Part shown: positions 6,449 through 39,278 of the stretch, piece by piece
Numbering within the stretch: the first letter of the stretch is position 1
Layout: each line of letters opens with the position of its first letter
Notes under the pieces: model-generated
What the model saw: only the letters and a program-made list of their open reading frames with translations
Databases searched by the model: none
Told to the model about the DNA's origin: nothing
Translations under genes and position numbers: made by a program
Origin: a virus
Virus record (IMG/VR): IMGVR_UViG_3300031873_000009
Coordinates: 1-44,202 of that record
Reading direction: 5' to 3' (one strand)
Length of the DNA: 44,202 nucleotides

Positions 6449-9096
6449 TGTTTGAAACCGCGAGAGGGCTGAAAGATATCCAGGTCGTCGTCAGCGGCGG
6501 CGTCGACGAGATTTCCGCCGTTACGCATATCGATGTCAAAAACTGCGTTCAGATGGTGAACTTCCGGGTCAGCCCGGACACGAAGCGGATCGAGAAGCGC
6601 GGCGGCCTGGAACTGCTCGTCAACCTCGGCGACGGCTATGACGTCTACGGCTACGGAACCTACTACGATGCCTCGAATCACTTCTGCCAACTTGCGGTGA
6701 CGAAGAGATATATTTGGCGTAACATCGCAGGCGCAGGGTGGGTCAATATCCACACGTTCGCCTCTCCGTATATCACTCACCCCGTAAAGATCTTCGAGAT
6801 CCAGAAGCGGATCTATGTTTTGACCGAACTCGAAAACGTGATGCTTCTCGCGAGCGGATCGGGCGGAACGGAGGCCGTTTGCGGCATCGTGGCGCCGACG
6901 ACGCTTCCGACCGTGGCCGTGGCGGCGGATTCGACCCTCGTCGATGAATCCTTCGCGGCGATCGGATCCTGGGCCGACGAGGATGCCGGCGGCGGCGCTT
7001 CTTCGATAGCTACGATCGACAGCCAGTCCAGCCTTCGGCTCTTATGCGCGGCCGCTTCCGGCGACATCGCTAAGCGATCGCAGACCTTCGCCAACTTCGG
7101 TCCGGAACTCTCGCTCGATATGCACATCTGGATCAACACGATCGGGATCTACCAGGACACCAATTACTTCCAGTTCGATATTTACAACGGCCGCGTCCTG
7201 GCTCAGGTTCGGATCGACAAAAACGATATGTATGTTTATAGCGGTCAATGGTGGGTCGCCTGCGGGATCACCATCGACCAGGATGCGTGGATGACTTTCC
7301 GGTTTTACTTCAACACGAATGAAGTCGGCGAAGAGTATGTCGCCATCTTCAAGAACGATTGGACGATCGGAGAGTTTATCGTCTCCCAGGCGAACGTCGG
7401 GAGCACCGGCAAGGTGATCCTGGCCGCCTACGGAAATACCGTCGCGACCGATGTCTACATCGACTATATCAAGATGGGGACGCCGGCCGGCGGCAACCTC
7501 ATGGGCAAATACCGATATGCGATCGCCTATGAGCGCGGCGGAAACTACGGCGGCTACAGCAACCCGATTAAATCGCTTATTGGAACAATCACTTTCAGTA
7601 CAGCCCCTGGGCTTAACGACCTCACTATCACCGGGACCTACGCCGGCGACGTAGACCGGACGATCGTCGTCTATTGCGACACGGGCGGAGCGGGGACGAA
7701 CACCTTCAAGTGGTCGGAGGACGGCGGCGTCACCTGGAACTCGACGCTCATCAGCATGGCCGCGGTAAATTATCTCAATTATGGCATCGAACTGAATTGG
7801 GCCGCGGTGACGGGTCATACCGCCACGAACACCTGGACCTTCACTTGCCGGGCGATGGCGGCCGTAGCCGTCCATCAATGCGTGACGCTGTCCAGCCTTC
7901 CGGTCTCCGGGGACAGCCAGGTCACCTTGAAAGACATCTACCGAACGACGACCAACGGCGCCCTCTATTATCTGGCCGCGCAGATCCCAAACGCCCAGAC
8001 GACCTGGAAAGACAATGTGCCCGACGGTGCGCTCGGACTCGCGATGCGAGAGGATTGGGATATTCCCCCGGTTGAGAAATTCGCACAATGGTGGGACGAC
8101 AGGCTCTGGATCGCGGACGCGGACGAGAACATCGTCTATTACTCGGACATTAATTTCCCCGAAGCCTTCGACCTCGGTTCCCGCTTCGTTAGCTTCAGGG
8201 TCGGCGATCAGAACGACAAGATCACGGGGATTATTCCTTACAAAGAATATCTCTACGTCTTCAAGAGGAAAAGCATTTTTTACATTCGCAAGAAGGCGGG
8301 TGGGGTATACGGTCGGTATCTAACCTGCAAAGATTTCGGCTGCATCGCGCCCTGGTCGCTCCACGAGGCCTACGGGCTCTTGATGTTCTTGTCCTACCGG
8401 GGATGGGAAGTCTTCAACGGGTGCGAGGGATTCGCGAACCTTTTTTCTCTGCCCGTGGATCCGACGATAAAGACGATCGACAAATCCAAGCCGGACCTGA
8501 TCTGCGCGGTCCACAACCGGGCCTACAACGAGATGTGGCTTTCGACTCCGGATCGGTTGCTGAGCGCATCGGCCTTGACGTTCGTCGTGAATTATCAGAA
8601 GGGCCAATGTTTCTACTATTTCCAGTTTCACCAGGTCCCGTCCTGCCTCGTCGAGGCTTGTGATTCGGCCGGAGAACTCAAAATCTACATGGGAACGCGC
8701 GTTGGCTACATCTACACCTGCGACACCGGGACCCAGGACGGGACGACGAACATCGCCGCCTACGCAAGGATCCCCTGGATCAAACTTCCGATCAAGAATA
8801 TGGCCGACCACTTCGAGCTCGAATTTGAGGCGCCGACCGGGATCACGCTGACGTCTGATTTTTATGCGGACTTTCAGGCCGCCTCGGTCCGGACGACCAC
8901 CCACACCGGGGCGACGCCGAGCTCTGCAGACATTCTGAGGAAGCCGATCTCAGACGAGAAGTCCATGAAGGTGAACTTTAAATATCTCTCATGGAAATTC
9001 GCAAATGCCCAGAACGTCGGGGCGGCATTGAAAATAAACTCCTGCAAGGTTTTCTTCCAGGACCTCGTGAGAAAGAACAAAATAACGCCGGATTAA
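6448..9096 (+). CDS. tail nozzle / tail stabilisation-like protein
   Basis: The product has 882 residues, starting at ATG 6448 overlapping the previous TAA. The N-terminal VNFRVSPDTKRIEKRGGLE pattern (a short strand with Asn and Arg followed by a double Gly) is typical of P22 gp10-like and T7 gp12-like nozzle proteins. Later, DRLWIADADENIVYYSD and YKEYLYVFKRKSIFYIRK match the propeller-like repeats of that group. Residues 170-350 may be an inserted beta-sandwich domain (laminin/LamG-like pattern, unproven). It probably assembles below the adaptor as the tail tube. The next gene starts within its stop codon (TAATG). Confidence 0.7.
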   Translation: MFETARGLKDIQVVVSGGVDEISAVTHIDVKNCVQMVNFRVSPDTKRIEKRGGLELLVNLGDGYDVYGYGTYYDASNHFCQLAVTKRYIWRNIAGAGWVNIHTFASPYITHPVKIFEIQKRIYVLTELENVMLLASGSGGTEAVCGIVAPTTLPTVAVAADSTLVDESFAAIGSWADEDAGGGASSIATIDSQSSLRLLCAAASGDIAKRSQTFANFGPELSLDMHIWINTIGIYQDTNYFQFDIYNGRVLAQVRIDKNDMYVYSGQWWVACGITIDQDAWMTFRFYFNTNEVGEEYVAIFKNDWTIGEFIVSQANVGSTGKVILAAYGNTVATDVYIDYIKMGTPAGGNLMGKYRYAIAYERGGNYGGYSNPIKSLIGTITFSTAPGLNDLTITGTYAGDVDRTIVVYCDTGGAGTNTFKWSEDGGVTWNSTLISMAAVNYLNYGIELNWAAVTGHTATNTWTFTCRAMAAVAVHQCVTLSSLPVSGDSQVTLKDIYRTTTNGALYYLAAQIPNAQTTWKDNVPDGALGLAMREDWDIPPVEKFAQWWDDRLWIADADENIVYYSDINFPEAFDLGSRFVSFRVGDQNDKITGIIPYKEYLYVFKRKSIFYIRKKAGGVYGRYLTCKDFGCIAPWSLHEAYGLLMFLSYRGWEVFNGCEGFANLFSLPVDPTIKTIDKSKPDLICAVHNRAYNEMWLSTPDRLLSASALTFVVNYQKGQCFYYFQFHQVPSCLVEACDSAGELKIYMGTRVGYIYTCDTGTQDGTTNIAAYARIPWIKLPIKNMADHFELEFEAPTGITLTSDFYADFQAASVRTTTHTGATPSSADILRKPISDEKSMKVNFKYLSWKFANAQNVGAALKINSCKVFFQDLVRKNKITPD

Positions 9097-14537: not shown

Positions 14538-15665
14538 ATGCAGCTAAAGTTTGATCGCAAGTCTCTCAACAAATCTCTCCAGGCCCTCGCCGAATACATG
14601 ATGAGGCAGAAACTCTACGAGCAGGAGCAAGAAGGCCGAATGACCTATCTCGGCGAGGCACAACGCGGCCGGATGGCGGAGGTGGGAGAGGAACAACGGG
14701 GTCGCATGGAATATCAGACCGCGCAGGAAAGGGCCAGCCAAGCGCTCGAAAAGACGGAGCATACGAACAGGATGGCCCAGATCAACGAACAACTGCAAGG
14801 CGAACTCTTGAGGATGCCGACGATCGCCAGGATGAGAGCTCAGGCCGAACTCGCCAAGACAAAGGGAGACCTGGTTGCGGCGAAGAAATACGACGACGAT
14901 TCTATCGTAGAGGCCGGCAACCTTGGCCGCCAAGCCTACCTATCTCAGTTCGGCGAACGCGCTACCGAGGAAGAATTGACCCAGGCCGCCAGGACAAGCG
15001 AAACGGCCATGACGAACTTCCTGCAGGAGGGAGGCATGGAGCGAAGATCTATGCGTGCCGCCAGCGTCGAAGGGGCCGGCCAGCAGATCCGGAGAGAAGA
15101 GCTCGGCGAGAAGATCGCCGGCAAGGGCACCGAGGAGTTCCGAAAAGATCAGAAAATCTGGCTCGATATCGTCGGCGATAAAATCAGCGGACTCCAGTCT
15201 CAGGGAGTGACCAGTTCGGGCGGCTCGCTGAGTGCTATCTCTGCATTTTTCAGCCAGAAATCATTTAACCCGATGTCTCCCGAAGACCTGGGGAAAGCGC
15301 TCGAGGGGCTCACTCAGCTTCAAACAAAGATCGCCTCTCCGATGAAGAACGGCCGGGGATACCTACCGACCGGCGAGGAGCAGGCCTTCATCAATAAAAT
15401 CGTCAACGTAGCTCAAGTCAAAAAGGAAGGCGGTCTGCCGAGCCCCGAAACCGGCCGTTGGCCGAGTGAACAGAAGGATCTCGAGAAACGGATCACGGAC
15501 GCGCAGGAACTCGAGTTCGTTCGAAATGCGATGACGAACTATAATTTCAATGGTTTTTTCGTTTCCGAGGCAACCGCCAGACAGCTTTACAAGGAGTTTC
15601 TCAAAGATAAGGCCAGGGCCATACAGCGATCCAGGACACCCGCGGCTGCCGCACCGATAAAATGA
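14538..15665 (+). CDS. helical internal virion protein candidate
   Basis: The product has 375 residues from ATG 14538. It is Gln/Glu/Arg-rich and helical, with three phased RGRM-type units near residues 33-60 and a long coiled coil to about residue 130. The region 220-375 is globular (FNPMSPEDLGKALEGLTQLQ). Its stop overlaps the start of the 2553-residue gene as ATGA, showing translational coupling. Coupling to the giant gene, and the size, fit the accessory ejection proteins that accompany a large internal protein (like T7 gp14/gp15). No family could be assigned. Confidence 0.55.
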   Translation: MQLKFDRKSLNKSLQALAEYMMRQKLYEQEQEGRMTYLGEAQRGRMAEVGEEQRGRMEYQTAQERASQALEKTEHTNRMAQINEQLQGELLRMPTIARMRAQAELAKTKGDLVAAKKYDDDSIVEAGNLGRQAYLSQFGERATEEELTQAARTSETAMTNFLQEGGMERRSMRAASVEGAGQQIRREELGEKIAGKGTEEFRKDQKIWLDIVGDKISGLQSQGVTSSGGSLSAISAFFSQKSFNPMSPEDLGKALEGLTQLQTKIASPMKNGRGYLPTGEEQAFINKIVNVAQVKKEGGLPSPETGRWPSEQKDLEKRITDAQELEFVRNAMTNYNFNGFFVSEATARQLYKEFLKDKARAIQRSRTPAAAAPIK

Positions 15666-18600
15666 GCGTTGATCTCCGGGCCTATGATGACTTCCTTCAA
15701 GGGAAGGGCTTAACCCCCATTGATAAATCCGCCGGAGCTCCGCCGTCGATCGGCGGCCGGGGCGCCACGGATCCGGAGGAAACAAAATTCCAGGAGTGGT
15801 ATAAATCATGGGCCAAGATAGCGGAGATCGATCCGAATCCTGACAACCCTCTTCATAAATACGATTACCGCGCCGCCTTCAAGGCTGGCGTCGAGCCGGA
15901 GTTCGATCCGAAAGATACTAAGTATCATTGGCCGAGCGAATTCAAGGCCCCGGATCACCCGAACAGATTTGTCGGCGGGGTCGACACGATCACCGGGCAA
16001 TCTACCTATCAATCCAAGCCGGGCATGGAAGAATTTGATTCTTTCCTCCAGGCGAAAGGGTTGAAGCCGATCGTCGTGCCGCAGGTTGAACCCGAGCGGC
16101 TTGGAGAGTTCGATAGCTGGCTACGAGGCAAGGGCTATAAGCCCATGAACGAACTTCCGGAGCGCCTGCCTCCAGGAGCGGCTCCGGAGATGCTCCCCTC
16201 TCGACAACCCACAATGAGAGCGGTAACGCCACAGGAGAAGGCCGCGTTCCTTGGGCCCGAGAAGCCCGCCATGCGAGAGTTCGCTCCGAAAGACTATGTC
16301 TCTTATGAGCAGCGCACTAGCCTCACGAGGAACCTTAAAGACCTCGCGAAAGTAGCGATCAATGACCCGACCGGATTCATGGATCTAATGAAGATGGAAG
16401 CCGGCCAAGGCGTTGTGACCGGCCTGACCCTGGGCAACGTCAACGGGATCAATGTTTTGAGCAAGCTAACCGGCCGAGACATTCGCGGCGAACTCAATCA
16501 AGCTTGGCAAAAAAAGGCTGGATACGTTCCCGAAAAAGCTCTCCAGATCGTTCAGCAGGGCGGCGCTTTTCTTGGAGGAGCGATCCCGGTAGCCGCCATA
16601 GCGATCACCAGCGGCGCTGCTGCGGCGGCCGCGACGAGCATCCCGATCCTTCAATCTGCGATCAGGATCGCCGTAGGCAGCACGCTCTTCGGCCTCGCTC
16701 AGAAACCCGAGGATGATACGCTCTGGAATAGATTCGCCCAGATCCCCGGCGCCGCGAAATTTTGGGCGATCGCCGATTTGGGCATGATGACCGGCAGCCA
16801 ACTCCTGCAGGTCTATAGGTGGAACAAGGCCTTCTTGGGTGAGGAGGCCGTCAGGTTCACTCCGGAGCAAATGTATAAACTCGCGATGAAGCAGAGAAAC
16901 GGGATGACGGCCGGGATGAAACGCGGTGACCCAAACTACAAATTGAATTTTACTCCCGAAGAACTCGACGTCATGGATACCCTTTCGAAGGGCACTAACG
17001 ACGGTTGGAAGAACGCCGTGAGGGAAGGATACGTCAAGGAGCCCGTCTTGCCCAGGAAGCCGGAGGGGGGAGATTTCTTCCGGCCAATGACGCAGACCAA
17101 GGTTCCCGCTGATCTAAAGGCACAATGGGCAGCCAAGGGTTACGAGAAAGAAGCGATCCGCCATCCCGTTGGAGAGGCGCCCTGGACCGGAGCTGGGCCT
17201 CCGCCGGGAGCGATCCCGACGCCTCCCGGACCAACGCCTCCACCGCCGACGCAGCCAGGCGCCTCTCCGGTTCCCGCGGGGAAGCAACTCGCTCCTCCGA
17301 AAGTCAAGGTGACGCCCACGCCCGACGGCGGTTGGGAGTATGAGGTCGTTCCCCCGGCAAGAGAGCCGGCAGCGCCACCGATCGAGTGGCCGGAAGAAGG
17401 AGTTAAATATGACACCACAAAAGGTAGAGGAATACCTCCGGAGCCGCGGCCTGGAGCCGGACCCGGAGAGCGAGCTATACCTCGTGCTATTGGGCCAGGA
17501 CAACCCCTCGATGCTAGGTTCGGGACCCATCTCGAAGGAAGTCTCGGAACTGTTCGCAACGCCTCCGGCTACAAGCAAAGCCCGATTTATCACAAGTCGG
17601 TTGAAAACGCAGCCCTCTACATCCAGGCAGAATTTAACCGCCTCCCCGAACCCGCAAAAAACTGGTTCTTAGATCAGCTCGATTCAGGAAAAGTAAAACT
17701 TAAGGTCTGGACCTACCTTACGGATCTCCCGACGGCGGAAGGTCCATTTCCAAAGTACGTTATCGATTACGCCGATGCTTTCACATGGGATAAAAAAGAT
17801 ATCTATGTAAATCCCCTGAAGCTCCAGGAGTTTTACGGCGGGAAGATCCCGGAAGGGATACTCTCTCACGAGATCCTTCATACGGCGTTCGCAGAGATAG
17901 GGTCAAAGAATCCGGAGCAGGTCGAGTTTTACAAAAAGCAGATTGCAACCCTCTCCCTACCCTATATCGAACATCTCGAAAAATCCTACACAAAACAACT
18001 GCCGCTCGATCATCCTGATTATTTCGCCGACATGATTTATAGTTCGATGCTGGACATATCTCGAAACGTCCCGGACCCGACGACGCAACAGTGGTTCTTA
18101 CACGACATGATCGTTAAGGCCATGAGCGTCAGGATGGCGGATCCGCTCGGACCGGCGAAGTGGAGTTTCTTTAAACGATGGAGGGAGCTGAGGGGTCTTC
18201 AACCTGGGCCGGTCAGCGCTCGCGATCGACAGGCGATTATGCTCTCATACATTCACACGATCTATGACAGGCTCGGCATTGCTGGTGAACTTGGAGACTT
18301 CGGCTTTCATGAATTATTCGCCTATAACGCGATGGTCGATCCGGCGATGGTCGAGAATCTTTTCAGGCCGCTAAGACCAGGGGCCCCCAAGGCTGCGCTG
18401 CCCGCGGGAAAAGGCGTTAAGCCGGCGCCCCCAAGCGAACCTGCACCGCCGCCAACGGCCAAGGGGGCCCCTAAAGAAATACCTCCGGCTCCGGAACGCG
18501 AGCCGATTCCTCCTGCGAAACCCATTCCCGAGGCTCAACCGGAGCCGGTTCAACCACCGGGAGCCGTTTTTGATAGTAAGTTTTCCATGGGCGGGAAGAT

Positions 18601-21600
18601 TGTCACGGTTAAAGCGATAGGCTGGAAAAAAATAATCCCAAATTCAAAGCCGGGAAGGTTGACGCAGATTTATGATGCCTGGATAAGATTGAGGCCCGAT
18701 GTTATTCCGTATGTTTCATATCAAAAAATCGCGAAGGAAACCGGCCTAACTATCGAAGACGTTGCGGCTGAATTAAAGGCCCTTTGGGAAAAAGATAAGA
18801 CGGCGTATGTGCCTACCGTTGATCGCCTGGGCAATAATTATGCCTTCAAATTCCGCGCAGATTATAAACCATCAGCGGAGATCTTCAAGGGGCCAACTCC
18901 GCCACCGATCGGTGGGAAGCCGACCGGGCCCTGGAAGATCTACACTAAAATCCACGGCACCAGAGACGCGGACATCATGGGGTCGCTCGAGGCCGAGCCC
19001 GGGGTCACGGTCAAGACGATAAAAGTTGATCGCACCGGCCACCGGACGCTCGAGATCTCCGGTCCGGAGAAGAAGAACGTCCTGGCCGTCGGCAAGCGGC
19101 TCCAGCGGACATACGGCAAAAGGATCAGACCGGTCCGCCCGGATCCCACCGATGAAACTGCGAACGCGAAGGCCAACCTCTTCGGCCGGATCCGATCGAA
19201 CTTCATGATCCTAGACAAGCAGCCGAAACCGCCGGCCAAGATCAAGCCCCGGGTCTCCGTCTGGCAGGACGATCTCTACGGCTTCATTAAGTCGGTCGGC
19301 GGAATAAGACCGGGCGGAGCCTTTGGCATGGCTGAGTTCAGGGACCTTAACCTTCCGCCGGGCCTTGTCAGAAAAGGTGGATCCTCGGCCGAGGACATCT
19401 ACACCCAGGCCAAGGCCGAGGGCCTCATTCACGAGAGCAAATTCGGTGACGCTCGAGATCTTTATACGGAGCTCGAGAATAGGAAGCTTGCACGCGGCCG
19501 GCCGCCGGTCGAGACCGAAGAGCCCCTGCCCGACGAATACCAGGCCCTTAGAAGAATCGAAGACAGCAAGCGCCCGATTGACGGCGAGACATACAAAGAG
19601 TGGGAGGCTAGGGTCAAGAAGCACCAGCGCGCCCTTCCCTTCGGCGAGGAGGAGGCGAAGCCTATCACGGAAGCAGAAATTTCTAGACTCCAGGCTAAAA
19701 CAAAAGAGTTGGCTAAAATATCTAAAGAAACCTTAGACAAGATGACGCCGCCGCTCGGTGTCGGGATGACGTATGAGGCCGAACCAGGCGTTATAGAAAA
19801 AGCCGAGGCCGAGGCAAGGACGGAAAAGGTCCAGCGCTCGGAGATCACGGCAAAGGGTCCGTTCAAGCCGATCGAGATCGAGGAGGAGCTGCCAAAGATC
19901 CCAACGAAAGAGGAGATGCGGGAGTTCGACGACGCGCAGTTCGATCTTTTCAATCAGCCGCCTCCAGCCGGGCCCGGTAGGCTTACTACCGATTGGGATG
20001 CGGTGAGAGCGAGGGTCAAGGCCGAGGAAGCCGAGCAAGCCAAGATCGAAGGCTTATCTAAAATTATCAAAGATAGTTCAGAGCGCATGGTGGAGATTTC
20101 CGAGGAGCCGCCGGGACCGCCGTTGTTCCTGCCGGACGAAGAACTCATGAACTACGTCGTCAGGACCCTCGACGGCATGAAGGGCCAGTTTGTCAACCTC
20201 TCCAATTCTGATTATTACCAAGACCGTTTCCTAGATCTGGTCAACGCTTTCCAGGGCAAGGATGTCGCAAAGATGGAGAACTACGCGCGGGTCCTCCTGA
20301 GTAAGCGCGGGCTACGGCGGATGGCCAAGACTTACGATAAAGAAGGTAAGATAACCGGCTACATACCCAGGGAGCCCGAACAGATGCCCGCACCCGCTGA
20401 GCGCGAGAAAGAAAGGGGTGAAGAGCCATTGGAGCGCGCAGAGCCCGTCTTCCAAGGCACCATGCCCGGGCCGGAAGAAGGGCTCCACATGGAATCCATC
20501 GAAAAGGCAAATCAGCTGGCCCTGGAAAAGACGCTCGACGACTTTCGATACATCGCCCAGGAGAACGATCGCGACTTCGAGATCCTCAAGGACACCTATA
20601 TCAACGGGCTCTCTTTACGCGAGATCGCCGAGAAGCTCCGGACGTCCTACATGACCGTGAGCCGGCGGCTCGATGCCATGCGCGCGAGCGGCCAGATCGC
20701 CGGGAGCGCAGCCTACCGGCGCTACCTCGAAACGAAGATCCAGATCAACCGGATGCTCGATAAACGCGCCCAGCCGCTCCTTCACTACTACGCCGGGATC
20801 CCGGGGCCGACGAGCAAGATCGAGGCCATGGAACTCTGGGAAAATTTCAAGCGCCTGTTCTTTACGGGCCGCGGCCTGCCGAAGGAAATCGAGCACGCGG
20901 CCGACCAGCGGGTGAATGAGTTCGTCGCCCACAAGTTCATGGCCACGGTCGAGGCGCGCGAGCTCAATCGATGGATCGCCAAGGAGAACAATAACAACCC
21001 GCGCGTCCGGGCCTATGTCCTCGACGTCCTCACGGGAGAGGAGGATCCCAACTTCGGCTATCTACCGGAAAAGATCAAGGACCTCCTTCGAAGGATGCGC
21101 GGTCAGCTGGATCTTCTCTCTCAGCAGATCATCGCCAACGTCGTTCCCAAGACGCCAGCCGAGCGAGCGCTTATTAACTCGATCGGACGAAACCTCGGGC
21201 ACTATCTCGGAAAATTCTATAAGCTTCACGAATACAATCTGAAGTATGCCCGGCGGAAGTGGCTCAGGCGTTACTATCATCCTACGCCCGAGGCCCGCGA
21301 AGCCTTCAAGCAGCAACTCCTCCGCGACCACCCGAGGATCTTCGGGGGACTCTCGAATAAAGACCTGGAGGAATATCTCGACTCGATCATCCGCGGTAAA
21401 CCGTTTCAGTATCAGTTCCAGGGATCGCGCCGGAAGTCCATCCCGACCCAGCACTTCATCAAGCGAAAGGAACTGTCGCAGGCCTGGAGAGATTTCCTGG
21501 GCGAGATCGAGGATCCGGTCTATCTTTACATCAGGACGACCGTCGACATGGCCTCTATGGTCTACAATGCGAAATTTCTCAATCAGGTTTATGCCGGCTA

Positions 21601-23323
21601 CGAGGGCAAGCTCTGGAGCAGGACGCTCGTGCCTTCCTGGAAAAATTACACGCTCGACGACAATCTCAAGTGGGGCAAGATGCGCGGCGCCTACATCCAC
21701 CCGGCTCTTTATGAGTTCCTGAAATACGAGCTCACCCCCATGGTCGACGCGACGTCGAGGTTTATCGAACAACTCATCATCAACCCGTTCAAGCTGAGCA
21801 AGACGGTCTTCTCGGTTCCGACCCATGCCAGAAACTTTTTTGGAAACGTCATGTTCTCAATGCTCAATAGGAACCTCATTCTCAACCCGACGAACTGGCG
21901 CTATTACCTGAAGGCCGCAGACGTCTTCTTCAATCGGAACAGGATCCTGGGGCCGGAGAAGGGCGCCGATGCCTGGAATGAACTTGTCCGCCGCGGCGTC
22001 ACGGAAACTCAATACTACGGTGCCGAGGTCCCGAAGATCTATGAGCGGCTCATGAGGCTCGACCCGGAGGAGTGGTGGGACTATCTCGCGAGGGTCCCGC
22101 GCTGGACTTTGGCCAAGCTCGGCGGCGCCTACAACTTCGAGGACGCGCTCTACAGGATCGCGGCCTATTACAAAGACGTCGAGCATTTCAATATGACCCC
22201 GGCCGAGGGCGTGGACGAGGTCAACCGGAGCATGACGAACTACCGGAAGCTTCCGGCTGCCGTCGATTGGCTCCGCAAGTGGCCGGTCCTCGGGCCGTTC
22301 GTTTCGTTCAAGTGGAACGTCGGCAAGATCCTGGCCAACCAGGTTGTCGAAGGGATTAATCAGGTCCGCGCCGGCGCCGGCTACGGAGAACCGAAATACA
22401 GGTCGGGCCGCAGGGGCGGTCCGTTCGGCAACGTGCCGAGCCCGGAAGCCGAGGCCGGCTACGAAAGAATGAAGAACAGCGGTATGTTCTGGGACGGGAT
22501 GCGCCGACTGTGGCGGGTCATGGCTGCCGTATCCACGCCATTTTTGATCAAAGAGGCCGTCGAGCGTTACTACGAGATCGACCAGGAGAAGATGGCCAAG
22601 ATCGAAAAATTCTACCCCGACTTCCTGCGCCAAGGGATCTTCGTCTACTGGAAAGACGACCAGGGCCGGGTCCGGCAGATCGACCTCTCGAACATCTGGC
22701 CGACCGGCGAACTCGCAGAGCTCATAAAGGCGATGAAGAAGGGCGATGTATCGGCTGCACTCAAAGTCCTGAACGTCGCCGAGTCTCCGCTCTTTGATCT
22801 CTGGTCCATGTTCAAGGGGATCGACCCCGTGACGCTGCAGCAAATGGATCCCAATCTCCTGAAGCGCGCCGGCTATATGCTGCAGAGGATCTTCCTTCCG
22901 GCGTCCCTTCCGATCCCGAGCTCAGGCACGCTCCGGCAGCTCATTAAAACGGGCAAGTTCGAGCCCCGCGCCGGGATCCTGACGACCAACCAGATCAAGC
23001 GCCTTATCGACGCTTATTGGGGTGAGGGCGTAAGCGGGACGAAGCTGCCCGAAGAGCTCCGCGCCTTCTTCACCGGGATGAGATCGTATGTCGTCGATCC
23101 CCAGAGGATCCTCGGCATGGCAGCCAGGTCCGCGCAGAAGCAAATCGAGGAGGAGCGACGCAAGTTATCGTCCTGGGGATTTAAGAGCTCGAAGGCTCCG
23201 AAATGGGAGATCGCCGAGAAGATCGAGGGCTTCAATCAGCGCATCGCGAAGATCGCGAAAAAGCTTGAAGAGATAAACGAACTTCAAAAATATTTCTTAG
23301 GAGGAGAAGATGCCGGACGGTAA
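15662..23323 (+). CDS. giant multidomain virion (ejection) protein with HExxH motif
   Basis: The product has 2553 residues, ATG 15662. The N-terminus carries three copies of a 13-residue motif of the form [YF]D[DS][FW]LxxKG[LY]xP (8-20, 125-137, 150-162). Between them lies a widespread phage motif (YDYRAAFKAG, HWPSEFK, about residues 67-95). Residues about 300-345 are Ala/Gly/Ile-rich and hydrophobic. H736-E737-I-L-H740 is a zincin-type HExxH. Pro-rich linkers lie near 500-580 and 905-965. Residues about 1640-1675 hold a helix-turn-helix (LSLREIAEKLRTSYMTVSRR). The C-terminal third (LSKTVFSVPTHARNFFGNVM at about 2045) resembles large polyvalent phage proteins. It is probably ejected with DNA. 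The HExxH may process host or virion proteins, but its third ligand is not evident. Confidence 0.75.
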   Translation: MSVDLRAYDDFLQGKGLTPIDKSAGAPPSIGGRGATDPEETKFQEWYKSWAKIAEIDPNPDNPLHKYDYRAAFKAGVEPEFDPKDTKYHWPSEFKAPDHPNRFVGGVDTITGQSTYQSKPGMEEFDSFLQAKGLKPIVVPQVEPERLGEFDSWLRGKGYKPMNELPERLPPGAAPEMLPSRQPTMRAVTPQEKAAFLGPEKPAMREFAPKDYVSYEQRTSLTRNLKDLAKVAINDPTGFMDLMKMEAGQGVVTGLTLGNVNGINVLSKLTGRDIRGELNQAWQKKAGYVPEKALQIVQQGGAFLGGAIPVAAIAITSGAAAAAATSIPILQSAIRIAVGSTLFGLAQKPEDDTLWNRFAQIPGAAKFWAIADLGMMTGSQLLQVYRWNKAFLGEEAVRFTPEQMYKLAMKQRNGMTAGMKRGDPNYKLNFTPEELDVMDTLSKGTNDGWKNAVREGYVKEPVLPRKPEGGDFFRPMTQTKVPADLKAQWAAKGYEKEAIRHPVGEAPWTGAGPPPGAIPTPPGPTPPPPTQPGASPVPAGKQLAPPKVKVTPTPDGGWEYEVVPPAREPAAPPIEWPEEGVKYDTTKGRGIPPEPRPGAGPGERAIPRAIGPGQPLDARFGTHLEGSLGTVRNASGYKQSPIYHKSVENAALYIQAEFNRLPEPAKNWFLDQLDSGKVKLKVWTYLTDLPTAEGPFPKYVIDYADAFTWDKKDIYVNPLKLQEFYGGKIPEGILSHEILHTAFAEIGSKNPEQVEFYKKQIATLSLPYIEHLEKSYTKQLPLDHPDYFADMIYSSMLDISRNVPDPTTQQWFLHDMIVKAMSVRMADPLGPAKWSFFKRWRELRGLQPGPVSARDRQAIMLSYIHTIYDRLGIAGELGDFGFHELFAYNAMVDPAMVENLFRPLRPGAPKAALPAGKGVKPAPPSEPAPPPTAKGAPKEIPPAPEREPIPPAKPIPEAQPEPVQPPGAVFDSKFSMGGKIVTVKAIGWKKIIPNSKPGRLTQIYDAWIRLRPDVIPYVSYQKIAKETGLTIEDVAAELKALWEKDKTAYVPTVDRLGNNYAFKFRADYKPSAEIFKGPTPPPIGGKPTGPWKIYTKIHGTRDADIMGSLEAEPGVTVKTIKVDRTGHRTLEISGPEKKNVLAVGKRLQRTYGKRIRPVRPDPTDETANAKANLFGRIRSNFMILDKQPKPPAKIKPRVSVWQDDLYGFIKSVGGIRPGGAFGMAEFRDLNLPPGLVRKGGSSAEDIYTQAKAEGLIHESKFGDARDLYTELENRKLARGRPPVETEEPLPDEYQALRRIEDSKRPIDGETYKEWEARVKKHQRALPFGEEEAKPITEAEISRLQAKTKELAKISKETLDKMTPPLGVGMTYEAEPGVIEKAEAEARTEKVQRSEITAKGPFKPIEIEEELPKIPTKEEMREFDDAQFDLFNQPPPAGPGRLTTDWDAVRARVKAEEAEQAKIEGLSKIIKDSSERMVEISEEPPGPPLFLPDEELMNYVVRTLDGMKGQFVNLSNSDYYQDRFLDLVNAFQGKDVAKMENYARVLLSKRGLRRMAKTYDKEGKITGYIPREPEQMPAPAEREKERGEEPLERAEPVFQGTMPGPEEGLHMESIEKANQLALEKTLDDFRYIAQENDRDFEILKDTYINGLSLREIAEKLRTSYMTVSRRLDAMRASGQIAGSAAYRRYLETKIQINRMLDKRAQPLLHYYAGIPGPTSKIEAMELWENFKRLFFTGRGLPKEIEHAADQRVNEFVAHKFMATVEARELNRWIAKENNNNPRVRAYVLDVLTGEEDPNFGYLPEKIKDLLRRMRGQLDLLSQQIIANVVPKTPAERALINSIGRNLGHYLGKFYKLHEYNLKYARRKWLRRYYHPTPEAREAFKQQLLRDHPRIFGGLSNKDLEEYLDSIIRGKPFQYQFQGSRRKSIPTQHFIKRKELSQAWRDFLGEIEDPVYLYIRTTVDMASMVYNAKFLNQVYAGYEGKLWSRTLVPSWKNYTLDDNLKWGKMRGAYIHPALYEFLKYELTPMVDATSRFIEQLIINPFKLSKTVFSVPTHARNFFGNVMFSMLNRNLILNPTNWRYYLKAADVFFNRNRILGPEKGADAWNELVRRGVTETQYYGAEVPKIYERLMRLDPEEWWDYLARVPRWTLAKLGGAYNFEDALYRIAAYYKDVEHFNMTPAEGVDEVNRSMTNYRKLPAAVDWLRKWPVLGPFVSFKWNVGKILANQVVEGINQVRAGAGYGEPKYRSGRRGGPFGNVPSPEAEAGYERMKNSGMFWDGMRRLWRVMAAVSTPFLIKEAVERYYEIDQEKMAKIEKFYPDFLRQGIFVYWKDDQGRVRQIDLSNIWPTGELAELIKAMKKGDVSAALKVLNVAESPLFDLWSMFKGIDPVTLQQMDPNLLKRAGYMLQRIFLPASLPIPSSGTLRQLIKTGKFEPRAGILTTNQIKRLIDAYWGEGVSGTKLPEELRAFFTGMRSYVVDPQRILGMAARSAQKQIEEERRKLSSWGFKSSKAPKWEIAEKIEGFNQRIAKIAKKLEEINELQKYFLGGEDAGR

Positions 23324-23843
23324 CCAAGGCGTGGACCTTGACAAGATCTTCTGTATCAACTCGAAGAAATACAGGATCCACAAGCTGCTGCTCAAGGCCG
23401 TGGCCAAGACAGAGAGCTCGCTCAACGTCTATGCCTACAGGTTTGAGCCGCTGTTCTTTGAAAACGTTCTTAAGAAAACGGTAGAGTGGAAGGACCAGGA
23501 TCCCAAGATCGTGAGTGCGAGCTATGGCCTCATGCAGCTCATGTTCACGACCGCCTGGCAGATGGGGTTCCGCGGAGCGGCTGCCGATCTTTACAATCCA
23601 GTAATCAATGTGGAGCTGGGCGCCAAGCTGCTGCGGCAGTTGCTCGATGGGATCGACGCCGGCACCGATCACATTCATTTTCAGATCTGGCCCTATGCCT
23701 TGGCCTTGTCTAGATACAACGGCGGATTTTCTGGCAACCCGACCGTCAATGGGGGCCTTCGAAACATGGACTATGTCAAGCGCGTCTGCGCTTATTGGGA
23801 AGGATTGAAAAAGGCGGGAGAGAACGACGCCTGCTATGATTAA
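23310..23843 (+). CDS. lytic transglycosylase-type lysozyme (SLT fold)
   Basis: The product has 177 residues, starting at ATG 23310 behind GGAGGAGAAG and overlapping the giant gene by 14 bases. AVAKTESSLNVYAYRFEP (residues 30-47) holds the catalytic Glu35, SASYGLMQL (about 69-77) is the conserved G-L-M-Q block, and LSRYNGG (about 133-139) closes the active site, as in soluble lytic transglycosylases. The enzyme would cleave the MurNAc-GlcNAc bond of peptidoglycan. No signal peptide is visible. It lies between the ejection genes and membrane proteins, so it may be the endolysin or a virion-associated muralytic enzyme. Confidence 0.85.
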   Translation: MPDGNQGVDLDKIFCINSKKYRIHKLLLKAVAKTESSLNVYAYRFEPLFFENVLKKTVEWKDQDPKIVSASYGLMQLMFTTAWQMGFRGAAADLYNPVINVELGAKLLRQLLDGIDAGTDHIHFQIWPYALALSRYNGGFSGNPTVNGGLRNMDYVKRVCAYWEGLKKAGENDACYD

Positions 23844-33659: not shown

Positions 33660-33865
33660 GAGAGCCCAAGAATAGCTATCTAGCTAGTATCTTAGCTATC
33701 TAAGAAAGAAAGAGAGTAGCTAGTGGGCGAAGCCCAAGACGCGCAGGTGAAGACTGGGGGAGGGCTAGTCTATATGCTACCCCACAGTCTCTTCACTCAC
33801 GCGCACGCGAAGATTAGCTATATAGCTATCTTGGAGAGCTATTGTCTTGGATTATAGCTAGGTCT
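33660..33865. repeat. TAGCTA iteron-like cluster
   Basis: At least seven TAGCTA[TG] elements occur, with the nine-mer TAGCTATCT at 33673, 33693 and 33823 and further copies at 33681, 33717, 33815 and 33854; two more lie near 34025. The cluster is in an AT-rich stretch of the divergent region. Such clusters bind initiator or regulator proteins. Confidence 0.6.
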
Positions 33866-33991
33866 AGGGAGGGAGGCGGCGTGCTCGCGAGGCTGGACAT
33901 GGGCATACCCCTATGGGCACTCGCGACTATCTGAGCGCATGGGTATGACTGTCCTCTCCCGCGACATCTCCCATATTTTCTGAGCTATTCT

Positions 33992-34021
33992 GGGGGATTT
34001 CTGGGGAATTTTGGGGATGGG
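33992..34021 (+). promoter_or_regulatory. G-quadruplex motif
   Basis: Four G runs (GGGGG, GGGG, GGGG, GGG) are separated by 6, 6 and 2 bases, satisfying the standard intramolecular G4 pattern. It lies on the + strand 44 bases before the first right-operon start codon. Confidence 0.5.
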
Positions 34022-34065
34022 ACAGCTAGCTATTCTAGGCGGTTGAACTCGCATAGGAGGCTCAG

Positions 34066-34365
34066 ATGCGCGAAGATTGGCTTAGAGACAAAGCATGGCT
34101 TACCGGGCAGGGATTGGCCCTGATTTTCTTGCCGAGATCAAATCCGTGTATAAGTGACAGCGATCTTTTACTTTTGATCTTGAGGTATGGGCTTTACGGA
34201 ACCAGGCCAAGAACGCTCCAGGAGCTTGCGAAGAGGAGGAACGTGACCAAGGAGAGGGTCCGGCAGATCGTTTGCGAGAACATGAGGATCCTCAAGTATC
34301 CGGCAAGGCGTGAATGGATGGAGGCCTTTGTGAAGCATTGGCAGGGGGACGAAAATCCTGGTTGA
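34066..34365 (+). CDS. stand-alone sigma-70 region 4-like protein
   Basis: The product has 99 residues, ATG 34066 behind TAGGAGGCTCAG. Residues about 33-85 match sigma-70 region 4: LLLLILRYGLYGTRPRTLQE, then LAKRRNVTKERVRQI, including the characteristic ERVRQI recognition helix. In sigma factors this domain contacts the -35 element and the RNA polymerase beta flap. There is no region 2, so it is not a complete sigma factor; it may act as a promoter-specific activator, a sigma mimic or an antitermination component. It is the first gene of the right early operon. Confidence 0.85.
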   Translation: MREDWLRDKAWLTGQGLALIFLPRSNPCISDSDLLLLILRYGLYGTRPRTLQELAKRRNVTKERVRQIVCENMRILKYPARREWMEAFVKHWQGDENPG

Positions 34366-39219: not shown

Positions 39220-39248
39220 TTGACACGACAAAAAATAAAGCCTATAGA
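39220..39248 (+). promoter_or_regulatory. late promoter (sigma-70 type)
   Basis: TTGACA (39220-39225), a 17-base spacer and TATAGA (39243-39248) fit the sigma-70 consensus well. The start of transcription would be near 39256. The next coding start is 39341, and the whole packaging and structural block follows in the same direction. Confidence 0.85.
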
Positions 39249-39278
39249 TTAATCTGATTTGTTTGTGTTTCATTTTCC

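Follow-up and report, generated by a model that had tools for sequence, protein, structure and literature searches.

The ejection proteins of podoviruses are exemplified by gp14 to gp16 of T7 and by gp7, gp20 and gp16 of P22, and a transglycosylase is found within the set. Phage-type polyvalent proteins were defined as a class by Iyer et al. in 2017, together with their late-gene context (PMC5512222). About 36% of polyvalent proteins bear zincins, and the virion RNA polymerase of N4-like phages also bears an HExxH domain (PMC5512222). A preliminary description of the locus analyzed here had read one very long polypeptide as an ejection protein with possible protease and DNA-binding cargo. Its assignment to an ejection-type class is retained below, as is a sigma-like helix-turn-helix (HTH), while the protease was not established.

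The window, that is the whole stretch of DNA analyzed, is the IMG/VR virus record IMGVR_UViG_3300031873_000009 (44,202 bp). Its portal gene (737 aa) reads through the record ends in a single frame, which makes a complete, circularly permuted genome of 44.2 kb probable. Besides the portal gene, those for terminase, capsid, a nozzle-like internal virion protein and RecT were recognized. For the portal and capsid proteins, similar sequences in cultured phages are few, come mostly from phages of actinobacteria and are only about 25% identical, which places the lineage far from cultured phages. A near-consensus host-type promoter, TTGACA-17-TATAGA, is found at 39220-39249 on the plus strand, upstream of the terminase/structural (packaging) operon. 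Elsewhere, about 400 bp of noncoding DNA between divergent operons (33670-34065) contain many short AGCTA/TAGCTAT-like repeats and form a possible control region. A shared early-promoter motif was looked for, and none was found.

The giant gene and the neighbors with which it overlaps are on the plus strand, as are all features of the giant described below. Its open reading frame (15662..23323) starts with ATG and translates into 2553 residues, and it takes up 17.3% of the record, in agreement with the earlier statement that it exceeds one sixth of the genome. The start codon overlaps the stop codon of a gene for a 375-aa late protein (14538..15665). In two related loci, L004 and L125, ORFs of 387 and 415 aa precede the giant at the same place, a correspondence of position and size only. 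At the other end, the gene of a lytic transglycosylase (23310..23843; Pfam SLT, E=2e-14) begins inside the 3′ end of the giant ORF, and in L004 and L125, too, the gene directly after the giant encodes a transglycosylase, with 40-41% identity to that of the window. The giant thus sits among late virion genes, with capsid, nozzle-type protein and transglycosylase nearby, which is the context expected of a polyvalent protein, and the phage is podovirus-like in gene order and in this transglycosylase partner.

Homology identifies a C-terminal module common to phage giant proteins (residues 1717-2548, about 830 residues; 20810..23305). Residues 1717-2388 match the giant protein of Pseudoalteromonas phage Y3 (WPJ21803.1; E=4e-18), and residues 1790-2228 match Cellulophaga phi13:2 gp127, which is annotated as a virion structural protein, and its relatives, with 22-24% identity to the Y3 giant and gp127. 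Scans of viral contigs with single sequences, either the whole protein or its C-terminal part, gave no match, and alignments were therefore needed to find relatives: a scan from the three-sequence alignment of the window, Y3 and phi13:2 proteins confirmed 102 relatives, with 80 IMG/VR loci kept. The giant ORFs extracted from 63 relatives are mostly 1000-4000 aa long. Nearest to the window are L004 (31% identity over 1636-2548) and L125 (31% over 1599-2541), and L005 is 26% identical in the C-terminal part only. No relative was found among plasmids or in two scans of prokaryote genome contigs. In the Y3 record (L001, OR779980.1), at about 8200-8900, the end of a first giant ORF is the same as the start of a second one over a few hundred residues, possibly through a second-frame reading of one ORF, a duplication or an assembly artifact.

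Upstream of the module, the relatives differ. A cassette survey, which took in L125 as a whole and, in the other members, for the most part some 620 residues ahead of the module, recognized ART-PolyVal in 11 of 61 members, LPD1 in five and LPD5 in three; rarer cassettes include LPD3, LPD23, MuF_C, GGDEF, RadC, ddrB-ParB, methyltransferase and HATPase domains, and several metallopeptidase-like (zincin) families. This is the polyvalent repertoire (PMC5512222). In L004, a GGDEF-like segment was read by eye in the middle of the protein, where Pfam gave no match; the middle of L125 has a HATPase match (E=9e-7) and a weak GGDEF match (E=0.03), and its chain of 3105 aa (L125:3080-12394) comprises HATPase (HSP90-like) and GGDEF-like segments as well as an HEFTH motif. 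Residues 1199-1275 of the window protein are only marginally similar to a domain of L004 (z=2.3), and their similarity to L125 is not significant. The aligned proteins are read as having a constant frame at both ends and exchanged cargo in the middle. Since relatives with the shared C-terminal module bear swapped polyvalent cassettes, the giant is probably a polyvalent (ejection) protein of the phage type, which would be packed in the head and delivered into the host. The polyvalent domain network is reached through relatives that share the C-terminal or the HWPSEFK part (see below), and the named Pfam polyvalent domains (LPD, ART-PolyVal) had no match in the giant itself. As for its multidomain character, 2553 residues and a sigma-4-like domain are seen, with a zincin as candidate for a second activity.

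The N-terminal part begins with a repeated motif, as the preliminary description had it. One copy, YDDFLQGKGLTPI (residues 8-20; 15683..15721), was read from the sequence, and two others, FDSFLQAKGLKPI (125-137; 16034..16072) and FDSWLRGKGYKPM (150-162; 16109..16147), were also found by an internal-repeat test, in which the top pair of 14-mers scored z=6.5 and was matched by none of 60 shuffles. Short N-terminal repeats with z>5 occur in roughly 20 of about 72 giants vs. 14 of the 307 further proteins from these loci, an enrichment that is approximate because the shuffle numbers of the two tests were unequal and the sets contain some redundancy. Repeats near the N terminus (first 200 aa) are seen in the giants of L004-L083, and their sequence is family-specific.

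Between the first two repeats lies a domain of about 75 residues (38-113; 15773..16000), here called HWPSEFK, with invariant HWPS, F-K and HP positions in 30 metagenomic phage loci. Its profile matches the window with E=5e-36, a value that is not independent since the profile includes the window's own sequence; the domain was also noted in L058 and L095-L124. Residues 38-113 had no match in Pfam and PHROG searches, and a self-written HWPSEFK consensus had none at E<=1e-3 in 50,697 cultured phage records. The carriers are giants with ART-PolyVal, radical SAM, RadC or 2H/Acb1-like domains, and also smaller proteins; their gene neighbors include head-closure, tail, nozzle-type and DNA-ejection proteins. 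The idea that the domain tags several proteins per phage was rejected, each record having a single copy. The HWPSEFK domain is a candidate packaging element; it marks giant phage cargo proteins in metagenomes and gives a handle for finding others. Further along, a conserved domain common to L004 (E=7e-6) and L125 (E=2e-9) extends over 16250..17086. It surrounds the hydrophobic Ala/Gly block that had been pointed out earlier (about residues 296-345; 16547-16696), whose hydropathy makes it a borderline candidate for a membrane segment (Kyte-Doolittle peak of 1.72 over 19 residues).

The best-supported element of the cargo is the HTH. With the NCBIfam sigma70-ECF model TIGR02937, the whole protein gives E=3.4e-8 over residues 1516-1671 (20207..20674; profile positions 29-155 of 165). 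The firm part of this stretch is region 4 (1631-1671; 20552-20674), which on its own scores 29.2 bits (E=6e-7), and regions 2 and 4 together (1516-1671) score 36 bits (E=5e-9). The candidate region-2 stretch thus adds 7 bits, in the correct order and spacing; cut out alone it had no match to TIGR02937, nor did Pfam Sigma70_r2 match there, and a sigma region 2 is a possibility suggested by the profile alignment. As the TIGR02937 scores of 33-36 bits are under the curated cut-off of 42.9, the domain is termed sigma-like here, short of an assignment as a sigma factor. In Pfam, residues 1640-1675 score 22.2 bits with Sigma70_r4 (E=1e-4; cut-off 24.1) and 21.2 bits with Sigma70_ECF (cut-off 21.1). 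The sigma-like HTH of the preliminary description is thus borne out, and a region-4-like HTH is firmly predicted, with a score well beyond chance.

Structural comparisons are less specific. Searched against PDB sequences, the HTH gave a CRISPR-repeat binding protein as best match (E=0.002) and a sigma factor at E=0.036, and a three-row profile recovered the same sigma factor at E=0.005. The AlphaFold2 (AF2) model of residues 1485-1725 from a three-row alignment was poor, with its best local confidence at the HTH, and its Foldseek matches to Lrp/AsnC, NarL and DeoR-type HTHs (about 47 columns, 2.1 Å, E about 0.7) lend weak backing to a predicted HTH fold. Alignment of the HTH with L004 gave z=5, reached by none of 200 shuffles, and the pairwise test with L125 was not significant. 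A region 2 read by eye in L004 and L125 was unsupported on testing, and the sigma model matched only the window's giant among 61 upstream regions scanned. A literature search reaching few subscription journals found no description of a polyvalent or ejection protein with a sigma-like domain; such a domain would be an unusual cargo and may be new to the literature. Outside the giant, a separate protein of 99 aa (34066-34365, plus strand) has matches to RpoD-type sigma factors in their region 4 (best E=5e-12), and the phage therefore encodes two sigma-4-like proteins.

The metalloprotease-like site fared differently. The motif HEILH is exactly where it had been noted (residues 736-740; 17867-17881), in a candidate zincin segment delimited from the motif only (606-915; 17477..18406), and E884 in “FHELFAY” (18311-18313), picked by eye, is a candidate third ligand. 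HEILH occurs once, and in a check of the 15 larger predicted genes no other HExxH was seen; as 1.8% of shuffled copies of the giant also contain an HExxH, the motif by itself is a hint of limited strength. The protease reading of the site gained neither a family, nor a relative, nor a usable fold. Profile search, proposed earlier as a check, matched sigma models to the HTH; zincin families of Pfam and NCBIfam did not match the giant, nor did those among PDB sequences. Relatives of the segment were sought by tblastn, in two contig scans and in 42 virus records, all without a match, and the 10 matches to a degenerate HE-x-LHTAF pattern appeared by eye to be unrelated. Among the closest relatives, L004 has no HExxH and L125 has one elsewhere. 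Comparison of the segment with the relatives' HExxH regions by hhalign and HMMs disclosed no related region; the top HMM score (1.6 bits) was above those of 100 shuffles and spans the motif itself only. Structure prediction by segment, likewise proposed, gave for 606-915 without an alignment a low-confidence AF2 model (pLDDT 47.6) with no meaningful Foldseek match. Two short strands precede the motif helix in this model, an arrangement also expected of a zincin but of no weight at such confidence. In the other segment modeled, the HTH was the best part. The frequency of zincins among polyvalent proteins raises the prior for one in the giant, and in the author's judgement the segment is somewhat more probably a zincin than something else.

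We infer virion packaging, injection, an activity of the cargo and a delivery function for the frame formed by the conserved ends. The giant would be made late, packed in the head of a podovirus-like phage and ejected together with the DNA or shortly ahead of it. Packaging and passage through the envelope would be the tasks of the N-terminal repeats, the HWPSEFK domain, the hydrophobic domain and the C-terminal module; the middle is the place of exchangeable cargo, as the relatives show. In this giant the cargo includes the sigma region-4-like domain, a DNA-binding element of supported family and putative role, whose likeliest job would be the recruitment of host RNA polymerase to the phage genome as it enters. 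If the HExxH segment is a zincin, it would most likely cleave the giant into working pieces, as has been proposed for other polyvalent proteins. In its full form, the proposal is that a sigma factor travels in the virion as one domain of the ejection protein, by which host RNA polymerase is captured for early promoters at DNA entry, before phage gene expression; it is put forward tentatively. If true, it would add a route for starting early transcription to host-type promoters and packaged RNA polymerase, and if residues 1516-1671 work as a sigma factor after injection, phages are able to load a transcription factor in advance in place of a whole polymerase.

The same HTH may have other uses. 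It might simply keep hold of phage DNA, packaged or entering, as an ordinary DNA-binding element with no role at RNA polymerase, a possible reading that we nevertheless doubt; the Lrp/AsnC, NarL and DeoR-type matches of the weak model and the CRISPR-repeat binding protein at the top of the PDB sequence matches point that way, but sigma models are top-scoring in both Pfam and NCBIfam. Rather unlikely, in our estimate, is an action against the host, in which region 4, once injected, would vie with the host sigma for RNA polymerase and dampen host transcription instead of directing phage promoters. Region 4 is alone in being firmly recognized, region 2, which a working sigma needs, being weak, and the near-consensus host-type promoter before the packaging operon implies that this operon needs no phage sigma, yet the region-2 stretch raises the sigma score with the right order and spacing.

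A further alternative denies the cargo altogether. The giant would then be a purely structural ejection protein, presumably like T7 gp16 and P22 gp16 and gp20, in which HExxH and HTH are look-alikes devoid of catalytic or regulatory role. The podovirus-like gene order and the transglycosylase partner suit this explanation, as do the candidate status of the HExxH and the nearness of the HTH scores to the Pfam cut-offs. It is nonetheless unlikely, given that the relatives swap the middle for enzyme domains and that the HTH scores far beyond chance.

The proposal of a delivered sigma-like domain can be set against the systems named at the outset. The giant resembles the T7 and P22 ejection proteins in late-region position, hydrophobic segment and a transglycosylase in the set; it differs in that no sequence match to them was found and in that its transglycosylase is a separate gene. 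With the N4-like virion RNA polymerase, a giant injected protein that starts transcription on entry, the likeness is one of analogy only: Pfam finds no polymerase domain in the window's giant, and where N4-like phages bring a complete polymerase of their own, the host enzyme would here be recruited by a sigma-like domain. The Y3 giant and phi13:2 gp127 have a homologous C-terminal module and other upstream cassettes, which in Y3 are ART-PolyVal, ddrB-ParB, LPD1 and LPD5. Also close are the polyvalent proteins (PMC5512222), with which the giant shares its nature as a giant multidomain late protein with a constant frame and exchanged cargo, and a C-terminal module common to giants with ART-PolyVal, LPD, ddrB-ParB and zincins. 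Unlike them, it is itself without a named LPD or ART domain, and its sigma-like domain is not in that account, which has only infrequent “other HTH domains” (PMC5512222). Protease and DNA-binding domains joined in one giant virion protein are a combination already known, and the sigma-like nature of the DNA-binding part may be its new element.
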